From Candidatus Bathyarchaeota archaeon (GTDB taxonomy: Archaea; Thermoproteota; Bathyarchaeia; Bathyarchaeales; Bathycorpusculaceae): a stretch of DNA of 64,000 nucleotides. The stretch lies in the NCBI GenBank assembly GCA_026014745.1, contig JAOZHS010000003.1, positions 352,137-416,136 of the forward strand. Direction: 5' to 3'. The notes below the pieces were generated by a model that worked only from the letters and a program-made list of their open reading frames with translations, was not told where the DNA came from and did not search any database. Shown in pieces: positions 54,332 to 58,359 of this stretch. Each line of letters starts with the position of its first letter. Within the stretch, counting starts at the first letter, position 1. The position numbers and the translations under genes are program-made.

Positions 54332-54409
54332 GGGCCGGTCGTCTAGCCTGGTTAGGACATCTGCTTGACGTGCAGAAGGTCGCCGGTCCGAATCCGGTTC
54401 GGCCCACCA
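54332..54409 (+). tRNA. tRNA-Val(GAC), intact att site
   Basis: This is a complete tRNA with a 7-bp acceptor (GGGCCGG with TCGGCCC, one G-T pair), anticodon stem TCTGC/GCAGA, loop TTGACGT (anticodon GAC), T arm GGTCCGAATCC, discriminator A and an encoded CCA. A TATA box ATATATAG (54292-54299) lies about 35 nt upstream. Its 3' part from 54360 is repeated at 57040-57089, marking an integration site. Its encoded CCA, which tRNA-Ser lacks, may come from the element. Confidence 0.95.
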
Positions 54410-54527
54410 TTCTTCCCTTGATTATAGCATTCAATTGCAGAGTCGGGGCTTGTTTCCATGTCTTAGGTCCAAAATGATCCGATATGTTCGATAGGGCTTG
54501 TTCTCTGACTATGAAAGATTTAGGCAT
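54332..54527 (-). pseudogene. integrase N-terminal fragment (IntN)
   Basis: A minus-strand frame starts at ATG 54527 (MPKSFIVREQALSNISDHF), runs into the antisense of the tRNA as GRTGFGPATFCTSSR and thus carries the att site. In SSV-type integration the integrase gene is split this way: the N-terminal piece stays next to the intact tRNA and its frame matches the C-terminal piece at 57040-57089 (also GFGPATFCTSSR). Only the position and frame are seen. The residues are too few to prove an integrase alone. Confidence 0.5.
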
Positions 54528-54722
54528 CTATTCTGGGCGCTTTCGACTATAGTCTTGTCCAAACAGAGACGCATAGTTGTTTTAGTCTGTTGTAGTTGTT
54601 TCCACATGAAAACGCTATTCCAATCGAATTAGATTGTCTAATCTTTCTGTTTGTTCCATCTCTTTTTTCTCTCTATTGTTATCCTTAAGAACGGTTCAGG
54701 AAGAATAGCAGGTGATTCATCA

Positions 54723-54914
54723 GTGGATCAATACAAATTAGGGGATCAAGCCATAGCAATAAAGAAAACGAAAGCTGAAAATCCTGATTTGGATGAGGAT
54801 ACTTTAGGTAGGAAAGCTATTAGGAGATAAATTTGAGCAACATATACTGAAAACGCTTTTAAAAAGTACGAAGCTGAGACGATAAGGAGAGTCAGGGATA
54901 TGATAAAAGTGTAA
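54723..54914 (+). pseudogene. small basic protein gene with two in-frame stops
   Basis: A GTG at 54723 with AGGTGA seven nt upstream opens a frame encoding 35 residues (MDQYKLGDQAIAIKKTKAE onward), then TAA and, one codon later, TGA. The same frame then runs on for 26 codons (ATYTENAFKKYEAETIRRV onward) to a final TAA. A single helical, charged protein of about 63 residues interrupted by two stops is the simplest reading. It lies inside the element. The first 35 residues alone may also be expressed. Confidence 0.4.
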
Positions 54915-55087
54915 TTTAATCCCACTAGTCCTAACAGCTTTAAAATGTAAATCATTCGACTAAGAATTGAATAAGTTAGGTACGCACTAATTTAATATAC
55001 AACTTGTATATATAGCGAGTATTTGCCAAATAGGCACTCGTTTGCCTGCTAAATTAGTATTCCGAGTTTGAAAAGCGGCTGAGCAAA

Positions 55088-56569
55088 ATGACTAAATTGG
55101 AACTCCTGCTCGTAAATCCACCAAAATATAATGGTTTTTCAGTTACAAGGGAAGAACGCTGCGAAGAAGTCACCCGCTATTTGGTACTCATGCCTGCAAC
55201 TCTGCTACTTTTGGCTAGCGCATTGAGAAAGCAAGGCCACCATGTTGAGTTGGTTGATGCGAACGCATTCAATCTTGGAATAGAAGAGTTAACAAAAAAA
55301 TTTGATAACAAGAAATTCGACTGTGTTCTTTTTCCTTTTAATTCGTACGTAATATGGCAAGATATGAAGATCTGCGGCATCGCAAAGAAATCAAACCAAT
55401 CATGCAAGACAATCAGTTTCTCTTTTTACTCAAGAGTAATAGCAAAAGAATTACTCTCCAACTACGAAGAGTTGGACATACAAATAGTCGGTTCTCCTTT
55501 TTCAGTTGTGCCCAGATTAATCAAGTGCTTTGCTGACAATGATAACGTTGAAACCGTGCGGGGGATAGCCTATAGAAAAAATAACCACGAAATAGTAGTA
55601 AACAACACAATTAAAGAGAAAGCATTAGCCGATTTTCCGCTTCCAGCCTATGACTTGTTACCGTCTTTCAAGCCTTACTACATAATTGATCCCCATTTGA
55701 CTCCTGTTGCGTTAGTAATATCTGGGATAGGTTGCCCATTTTCCTGCAATTTTTGCAACTATGCTCAAACTGGATATGAAACTAGACCTATTTACAGTAT
55801 AATCGATGAACTTAGACTATTAAAGCGACTTGGAAACCTTAAGTACGTTTGGTTTTACGATGCATCTTTTACTGTCAATCGTAAAAGGGCTACCGCCATT
55901 TGTGAAGCAATCATAAAAGAAGGCTTGCATTTCAAATGGTTTTGTGATTCAAGGGTGGATTCAGTCGATCAAGAGTTGCTTACACTAATGAGGAAATCTG
56001 GTTGCATCGGTATTTCTTACGGAGTGGAATCTGGATGCCAAAGAATCCTTGACGCGATGGGAAAAGGTTGTACGATAGAGCAGGCTAGAAAAGCATTAAT
56101 CTGGACTCGCAAAGCAAGAATTATGGTTCAAATGAACATGATTATTGGTTATCCCGGAGAAAATGTCACATCACTTAACGAAAGCAAGGCCTTCATTAAA
56201 GAGATACTCCCCGAGAATTTACAAATCGCAACCCTTCAGGTTGTACCTGGAACGGCACTTTTCAGAGAGACAGCACTTAACCATGAAAAAGCCGAGAAGA
56301 ATGATTTGGCACCATGCTTTAAGTATCGAGAATCCAAGCAGCTAAATGATGAAATAACAAGGATGAAACGAATTCTTTTGTTCAATCCTAAATGGTGGCT
56401 GCTTTCCGCAAGATCCCTATCGTTGAATCCGGAGCTAGTTTTACCACTGCTTGGAACATATGCCAGGGGATTCAGTGAAAAGGCTTTTTCTTACTTTTAC
56501 CAATCATCTCTTGGAATGGCACTTGAACGCACACAATTTACACTCACGAGGGAAGAAGCCGTAGTTTAA
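55088..56569 (+). CDS. B12-binding domain radical SAM protein
   Basis: This is a 493-residue radical SAM enzyme with an N-terminal cobalamin-binding-like domain (residues 1-150, starting LLLVNPPKYNG) and the iron-sulfur motif C216-x3-C220-x2-C223 in GCPFSCNFC. The C-terminal third has the usual helical extension. The DxHxxG motif of strict B12-binding proteins is not seen, so cobalamin binding may be of the base-off, partly degenerate type. It is the only intact gene in the integrative element and is AT-rich compared with flanking genes. Relatives act in methylation of lipids or in tetrapyrrole and peptide chemistry. The substrate is unknown. Confidence 0.85.
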   Translation: MTKLELLLVNPPKYNGFSVTREERCEEVTRYLVLMPATLLLLASALRKQGHHVELVDANAFNLGIEELTKKFDNKKFDCVLFPFNSYVIWQDMKICGIAKKSNQSCKTISFSFYSRVIAKELLSNYEELDIQIVGSPFSVVPRLIKCFADNDNVETVRGIAYRKNNHEIVVNNTIKEKALADFPLPAYDLLPSFKPYYIIDPHLTPVALVISGIGCPFSCNFCNYAQTGYETRPIYSIIDELRLLKRLGNLKYVWFYDASFTVNRKRATAICEAIIKEGLHFKWFCDSRVDSVDQELLTLMRKSGCIGISYGVESGCQRILDAMGKGCTIEQARKALIWTRKARIMVQMNMIIGYPGENVTSLNESKAFIKEILPENLQIATLQVVPGTALFRETALNHEKAEKNDLAPCFKYRESKQLNDEITRMKRILLFNPKWWLLSARSLSLNPELVLPLLGTYARGFSEKAFSYFYQSSLGMALERTQFTLTREEAVV

Positions 56570-57089
56570 TATTCTAAAGTTATCTTTGTCATAAATTTCT
56601 TTCATTCTTTGAGGTGAGTAATCCAAGTAATGTTTCGCCAATATACTTCGGGGTATTCGTCCGCAAAGAGTATCAACGTAGCTATCGCTGACATCCTTTG
56701 AAACCATCTCACAACAGAATAAGTCCCTTAATCTCGAGGTGTGATAATTAATCCTGTCTTTGTTCTTGCCTATTTCCAAATATTGTGACTTTCCTTATTG
56801 ACATTGGAAATAGTTTTGGATTGTCATCTTTTCCCATTCTTCAAGTATTGCTTTGGAACTTGAGATGTTTCTTCATTGAAGAAACTGAGCCGAGCCTTTT
56901 TAGTCTCTCCTGAATGAGGCTTTGGCTCAATCATCTTTTTCTCAAAATCGATACATCTTCAATTGAAAAATTCAAGACATCCATTCGTATTATTCCCCGT
57001 TTTCTTGATTGGAATTCTTTTCAGAAATAAGCTCAACATTCTGCTTGACGTACAGAAGGTAGCTGGTCCGAATCCGGTTCGGTCCACCA
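56504..57089 (-). pseudogene. broken tyrosine recombinase, C-terminal fragment (IntC)
   Basis: The minus strand downstream of the att copy reads GFGPATFCTSSRMLSLFLKR, then a stop. The same frame goes on with PHSGETKKARLSFFNEE to another stop near 56827. After a shift it continues NYHTSRLRDLF, SYVDTLCGRIPRSILAKHY, DYSPQRMKEIYDK. The second part carries HTSR (H-x-x-R) and the nucleophile segment HYLDYSP of archaeal SSV-type integrases. The core-binding region with the first catalytic Arg is missing. The last codons overlap the end of the radical SAM gene. Confidence 0.7.
57040..57089 (+). repeat. tRNA-Val 3' fragment (second att site)
   Basis: Fifty nucleotides equal to 54360-54409 except for four positions (G to A, C to A, C to T, C to T). 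It spans the anticodon arm, variable region, T arm and CCA end, but the 5' half of a tRNA is absent. The C-to-T at the acceptor would pair poorly. It is the element's far boundary and not a functional tRNA. Confidence 0.85.
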
Positions 57090-57249: not shown

Positions 57250-58359
57250 ATGGGACGTATGCAAATGGGAAAAAACAAAATCTTCGCCATTGTGGCAATA
57301 GCAATAGTCATAATCGCAGGCATAAGTGCAGTTTACCTCCTCACCTCAAACCAAGCAAACAATCAACCAACAGCAACAACTGTCACCGACGCACTCGGGA
57401 GAACAGTAACCATACCCCAACAGGTAGACTCCATCTACTGCATAGGCGCATGTTCCTTGCGGTTAGTGTCTTATTTTAACGCAGTTGACAAAGTACACGC
57501 AATCGAAACCGCCGGCACATTCAACACACTTGACGACCAAACATACTACCTCATCAACAAAGAAAAATTCTCAAACCTACCCCAAGTCGCAACCACCGCT
57601 GAAGCCATCCTAGACCTCAACCCCAGCCTCATAATCACATCCACCGCCGAAGACATCGCAACCGCAGACACTCTTCAAAGCCAAACCAACATCCCCGTCT
57701 ACGTCATCAACGCCAACGTCGAATTCGGACAAGCATATTATGACCAGATAACTTCTCTGGGTACTTTGTTGGGAGAGTCAACCAGAGCTGCACAACTCAA
57801 TGAGGGCGTCGCCAACATGATCAGCGAAATCACAGCTAAAGCAACTACTGCCAGCGTCGAGAAAGCCTATGCATGTGGCATGTTCTATTATGGCGGAGCG
57901 TCATTCCTCAAAGGCTCTGGCAACTATTTGCCCTTCGACTACTCGATGGTCACAAACGCGATTGAGCCTGCCGCTAATGGTCAACCTTACACCATCACGC
58001 TCGAAACCCTCATCGCAGCAAACCCAGACTACATATTTATAGACAGCATAGGACTAAACAGTTGCATCGACACAATCAACGGATACATTGACTCAAACAC
58101 AGGATTAGCCGATGTTGCTGCAATTAAAGACAACAACATCTATTCAACATTGGTCTACAAGTGCTACGGCACCAATTGGGATAACCAGCTAGTGAACGTT
58201 TACTACATTGCATCAATAATGAACGGAAACCTCTACTCTTGGAACTTCGAGAACAAAGCAAACGAAATCATACAGCTATTTTATCCAGGAACCACAATGA
58301 CCTACGCTCAAATCGCAGCAGCGCAGACAGGCAACGGATGCAGCAAAGTCACGCTGTAA
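57250..58359 (+). CDS. FecB/BtuF-type ABC substrate-binding protein
   Basis: This 369-residue protein is anchored by an N-terminal helix (IFAIVAIAIVIIAGISAVYLL). The mature part is of the periplasmic binding class for iron chelates, haem or cobalamin: VTDALGRTVTIPQQVDSIYCIG, IITSTAEDIATADTL, QSQTNIPVYVINANVEFGQ and the final IIQLFYP. No lipobox Cys is present. It is the first gene of a FecBCD-like set with permease and ATPase. A TATA-like AAATTAAAAAATC lies upstream. Poly-T DNA at 58373-58393 follows. The substrate (siderophore or corrinoid) cannot be fixed. Confidence 0.88.
   Translation: MGRMQMGKNKIFAIVAIAIVIIAGISAVYLLTSNQANNQPTATTVTDALGRTVTIPQQVDSIYCIGACSLRLVSYFNAVDKVHAIETAGTFNTLDDQTYYLINKEKFSNLPQVATTAEAILDLNPSLIITSTAEDIATADTLQSQTNIPVYVINANVEFGQAYYDQITSLGTLLGESTRAAQLNEGVANMISEITAKATTASVEKAYACGMFYYGGASFLKGSGNYLPFDYSMVTNAIEPAANGQPYTITLETLIAANPDYIFIDSIGLNSCIDTINGYIDSNTGLADVAAIKDNNIYSTLVYKCYGTNWDNQLVNVYYIASIMNGNLYSWNFENKANEIIQLFYPGTTMTYAQIAAAQTGNGCSKVTL

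Follow-up and report, generated by a model that had tools for sequence, protein, structure and literature searches.

Why a block of 2.7 kb with a single intact gene should lie between a tRNA-Val gene and a partial copy of the same tRNA is the question raised by this locus of a Candidatus Bathyarchaeota archaeon, whose genome comprises 2.7 Mb in 3 contigs and of which one stretch of 64,000 nucleotides (the window) was analysed. The block is very probably a class I (SSV-type, suicidal) element that inserted at tRNA-Val, with an integrase that was split and then decayed and one radical SAM gene that has stayed intact. A sequence-only reading of the same DNA had proposed an element of this type, and most of what it saw in the letters has held, with the exceptions given below.

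The tRNA-Val(GAC) is called intact by ARAGORN, and its 3′ part aligns with the copy at 46 of 50 positions, leaving the four mismatches already counted; the similarity ends sharply on both sides. In a search across the whole genome the copy scores E 2.6e-14 and is therefore not a chance match. Class I insertions are recognised by a tRNA gene and a direct repeat of its 3′ part of about 40–50 bp, and here the repeat measures 50 nt. GC content is 0.35–0.42 within the block versus about 0.44–0.50 in the operon to its right, in agreement with the AT-rich character that had been ascribed to it. The ORF list gives one long intact gene in the interval 54410–57039.

Features of the tRNA-Val locus, in window coordinates
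Feature	Position	Strand	Basis
tRNA-Val(GAC), intact; 3′ part 54360–54409 is one att site (attL)	54332..54409	+	ARAGORN
int(N) remnant: decayed N part resembling CcdA/RHH (..TTMRLCLDKTIVESAQNRCLNLS*SENK..) and interrupted by stops; enters the att site as WWAEPDSDRRPSARQ	54410..54586	-	Six-frame comparison with G015 N part
Broken frame (SSVDQYKLGDQAIAIKK...MIKV), two stops	54714..54914	+	Translation
Intact radical SAM cargo gene, encoding 493 aa	55088..56569	+	Pfam PF04055, E 6.6e-18
Decayed int(C): att-proximal piece and two catalytic pieces in two frames, with stops	56564..57039	-	Pfam, profile, translations
att copy (attR): displaced tRNA-Val 3′ part, identical at 46/50	57040..57089	+	Alignment, genome-wide search
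First gene of conserved transporter operon, outside the element, marking the right flank	57250..58359	+	Orthologues in four genomes

Remnants of an integrase gene lie at both ends of the block. The frame with HTSRLRDLF and HYLDYSP, previously taken for broken recombinase sequence, belongs to int(C) and is the one (56504–56779, minus strand) that matches PF16795 (Archaeal phage integrase) at E 1.5e-4 and 22.2 bits, below the Pfam cut-off of 27. A profile of 302 positions (A1), built from ten full-length integrase relatives, is matched by two pieces of int(C) in two frames at E 1e-22 and 4e-16, piece 56731–56952 corresponding to profile positions 172–246 and piece 56567–56770 to positions 234–301. 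By similarity, then, the fragment is that of a tyrosine recombinase, as had been supposed; its nearest relative is G081:C42, with 75% identity. The first catalytic Arg has been lost, and the Lys, second Arg, His, and Tyr regions are still readable. On the minus strand, the stretch just past the att copy translates as NVELISEKNSNQENGE, which resembles, by eye, IELRSERNCNQEIG of the integrase at L152, and about 140 codons are deleted between NVELISEKNSNQENGE and profile position 172. The int(C) gene part is broken by this internal deletion, frameshifts, and stops; int(N) is broken by stops.

Beside the tRNA, the int(N) remnant is the top scorer of 3114 six-frame window segments compared with the N part of the integrase from G015, a sister genome of the same genus (score 48, runner-up 40), and it lies in the expected place. 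Its EWWAEPDSDRRPSARQA stretch is identical to the integrase of L151 at 16 of 17 residues (E 2.5e-6); a Pfam search with the N-part remnant returned no match. In class I insertions, int(N) adjoins the tRNA and int(C) the copy, and remnants of both stand here in those places and on the expected strands. The split-integrase polarity claimed earlier is thus upheld, and the integrase of G015 is split likewise.

The claim had been drawn from frames on both inner sides that translate as GFGPATFCTSSR through the att site. That translation is indeed present on both sides, because the antisense strand of any copy of the tRNA-Val 3′ end reads GFGPATFCTSSR, but it is not the integrase frame, which reads WWAEPDSDRRPSARQ. 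A joined frame running from ATG 54527 through GFGPATFCTSSR was rejected, as it overlaps the antisense of the tRNA, matches nothing in Pfam, and is unused by intact relatives; the 54527 ORF is a by-product of the tRNA antisense. Among the relatives, L145 and L151 have an int gene that is not interrupted and that contains the tRNA-like att, in L151 in the same frame as in the window; the N part of the L151 integrase shows a single frameshift, and this integrase scores 41.0 bits against PF16795, above the cut-off. A CcdA/ribbon-helix-helix-like N part (..LDKELVEKSKELGFNLSKTFENHLK..) recurs as int(N) in L153, L179, L211, L218, L245, L145, and L151.

Class I integrases carry attP inside their own gene, which is cut upon insertion (PMC8371274). 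An element with such an integrase would have entered the 3′ half of tRNA-Val(GAC) by site-specific recombination, its incoming attP restoring the tRNA and the displaced host 3′ end staying behind as the att copy. As the integrase gene contains attP, the same event would have cut that gene into a CcdA-like int(N) beside the tRNA and a catalytic int(C) beside the copy. The element would thereby have become unable to excise itself; both integrase pieces have decayed, and the radical SAM gene survives intact. It is presumably immobile today, except perhaps via a related integrase acting in trans—cases of which are cited in the same review (PMC8371274)—and such excision may be inefficient, given the four mismatches between the att copies.

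In its tRNA 3′ end as attB, 40–50 bp repeat, restored tRNA, attP inside int, and int(N)/int(C) split, the element resembles the SSV1/SSV2 proviruses and the XQ elements of Sulfolobales (class I, reviewed in PMC8371274). Unlike these, it has no virion genes and one radical SAM cargo gene, and its integrase is more degraded and belongs to a family that has a CcdA-like N part and occurs in Bathyarchaeia as well as other archaea. Fusellovirus genes (VP1/VP3 and others) are absent from the block, of which the radical SAM gene is the sole intact one. The integrated plasmids pTN3 and pT26-2 (TKV elements, Thermococcales) share with it a suicidal integrase, of a family (PF16795) that the window fragment matches below cut-off, and a tRNA target; however, they carry plasmid genes, whereas the window element has no recognisable replication gene. 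The kind of element (SSV) is already known, and what the locus adds is the presence of suicidal-integrase elements at tRNA-Val in Bathyarchaeia.

The same chromosomal site is occupied in G015. There, tRNA-Val (C1:918195–918297) is followed by a 27-kb element, an att copy (C1:891083–891135), and, directly beyond the copy, the same transporter operon as in the window, so that the right boundary is fixed in two species; orthologues of the first operon gene in G045, G015, G016, and G021 share 71%–79% identity with it. An open, intact int(C) reads inward from the G015 att copy, and a CcdA-like int(N) reads into tRNA-Val, 27 kb away. Joined, the two score 23.2 bits against PF07362 (CcdA) and 39.9 bits against PF16795, both over the cut-off. 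The G015 island and the window element thus have genus, site, polarity, and a split integrase in common. The island differs in its 27 kb, its defence-type genes, and an integrase of another subfamily, and its contig is without a radical SAM relative among the matches listed. Since the two integrases are only distantly related (E 2.4e-6), the insertions were probably independent and not one element at two stages. A single insertion ancestral to both was considered and is not supported, the integrases being distant and the C-to-T common to the att copies too little to go on. A single chromosomal site hosts cargo of unrelated kinds: one species has a radical SAM enzyme there, another a 27-kb defence island. 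PADLOC matches within the island (G015:C1:891083–918297; L097, L111, L103) are NucC-like, Zac, PDC-S11, PDC-S28, and DinG-type helicases.

The comparison of related genomes that had been proposed, with an empty tRNA-Val site in mind, brought this occupied copy to light, but no strict empty site (tRNA-Val and then directly the operon) in the genomes compared. In both G045 and G016, tRNA-Val and the shared downstream flank are present, but other genes separate them and the att copy is absent. In G045 (C21, about 376000–380600; L187) genes that read, as named from sequence, as riboflavin/F420 type fill the interval between tRNA-Val and the operon.

The cargo gene had been described as the only intact gene inside, which the ORF list and the PF04055 match bear out, and as a B12-binding radical SAM gene, of which the radical SAM part is borne out and the B12-binding part is a sub-threshold match. 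Of the traits of cobalamin-dependent (class B) radical SAM enzymes, its product carries the CxxxCxxC motif as GCPFSCNFC, and for the B12-binding domain PF02310 it scores 17.5 bits against a cut-off of 32.1. The nearest NCBIfam models are PhpK, BchE, and HpnJ, all far below cut-off, and the nearest PDB structure is AprD4 (6fd2, E 2.4e-23). Searches with peptide patterns found no close relatives in viral contigs or in the contigs of GTDB species. Across 257 genomes of the class (self-match E 1e-65) and 398 of the phylum (E 1e-70), the sole other match, at 39%, is in G010, within a run of genes read from sequence as glycosyltransferase-like, deacetylase-like, and epimerase-like. Full-length elements with the same gene, for which a search had been suggested, were found neither in the species and viral contigs nor in the class and phylum samples, the one relative sitting in this glycan cluster. 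The enzyme may modify a surface sugar (glycan) or lipid.

It had further been claimed that the element was reduced to one cargo gene. Such a reduction from something larger is unproven, since siblings of the same integrase family span 1.6–3.9 kb: att-bounded elements of the family measure about 1.6 kb (L206), 2.2 (L245), 3.3 (L179), and 3.9 (L211), with larger ones of 5.2 kb (L232), 5.4 (L153), and 6.9 (L218), in a sample biased to short elements because the loci had flanks of about 7 kb. Most of them have the N part beside the far repeat. A length of 2.7 kb is not unusual for this integrase family and may be near the native size. The element may well have been small from the outset, in a family whose members are often tiny (an integrase and one or a few cargo genes, with no replication or virion genes), in which case integrase function would have been lost and little length. 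L211, at 3.9 kb, has both integrase halves open; however, the integrases of L206, L245, and L179 are broken too, the 7-kb search flank favours small elements, and G015 carries 27 kb. That last figure, demonstrating that 27 kb can occupy this tRNA-Val site, is consistent with another origin that can be held only tentatively, namely that the block is what is left of a virus or plasmid that was once larger, down to one cargo gene. The internally deleted integrase and the broken frame at 54714–54914 (no Pfam match at E 5) point the same way, but no viral or replication remnant is recognisable inside the block, and small siblings exist. With att-flanked elements of 1.6–4 kb present in this integrase family, it becomes testable whether such tiny elements carry genes natively or are residues of something larger.

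A different origin for the cargo is suggested by its convergent orientation to the integrase gene, whose 3′ end its stop codon touches or overlaps. The integrase 3′ end would then be a recombination site at which the radical SAM gene docked as a cassette. Elsewhere, in many archaea, detached tails recur: 46 integrase-tail-only fragments (about 115 bp, the last ~40 codons) lack the gene body, lie at loci that have between one and four each, and start at profile positions 243–271 of 302 (mode 264). At two pairs of sister loci (L164/L166, G159:C41 and G037:C4; L160/L163, G081:C51 and G079:C21), orthology of 92.7% and 98.3% ends at the tail 5′ edge; the tails are about 78%–80% alike, and beyond them the DNA is different or less similar. 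L206 and L245, from two Hadesarchaea genomes, have an integrase module alike to the last tail codon, after which the cargo differs. Against docking, the window int(C) exceeds a tail in length and falls outside the tail set, the boundaries do not coincide to the base, neither a circle nor an excision was seen, and the tail is among the best-conserved parts of the integrase and is for that reason easier to detect. The general proposal—that the last ~40 codons, which include the catalytic tyrosine, also serve as a recombination site, that gene-sized units beginning with an integrase 3′ end are exchanged next to it, and that integron-like arrays, with or without integrase, exist in many archaea, the radical SAM gene being one docked cassette—is an unlikely one, and docking as the account of this locus is no likelier. 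A tRNA pseudogene that adjoins unrelated decayed DNA by chance has next to no standing: several partial tRNA copies do exist in Bathyarchaeia genomes, but here recombinase pieces lie at both ends on the correct strands and the same site is occupied in G015.

Class I insertion thus remains the preferred account of the window, and the detached tails are of interest in their own right. They are found at L142 (G081:C32, 2480–6860), L144, L145, L146, L147, L148, L160, L162–L175, L206, L245, L236, L265, L270, and other loci, between unrelated genes and sometimes several in a row; G081:C32 has four tails after one full integrase. Integrons, defined by an IntI-type integrase with attI and attC sites, were a point of comparison for the tail arrays only, and the integrases at these arrays match PF00589/PF16795. 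A whole-profile search of 163 genomes gave, by hand count, about 28 tails versus about 5 short fragments of other gene parts, the tail being the more easily detected. Slow decay of the tails is disfavoured because 22 of 25 are stop-free and 60%–71% of differences fall at third codon positions (pairs of at least 70% identity). The sequence GCGCGCGCA was rejected as a precise junction motif of tail units, as it occurs elsewhere near the same genes too, and a TATA-like enrichment 10–40 bp ahead of the tails, with 17 sites spread over three 10-bp bins, is weak and is not claimed. Tandem tails are present in Hadesarchaea at L206 (4331–4729), L245 (7686–8075), L236 (317–697), and L270 (7007–7375), the last a tail pair without an integrase body; the second tail follows a spacer of ~153–168 bp with coding capacity for a short peptide rich in lysine.
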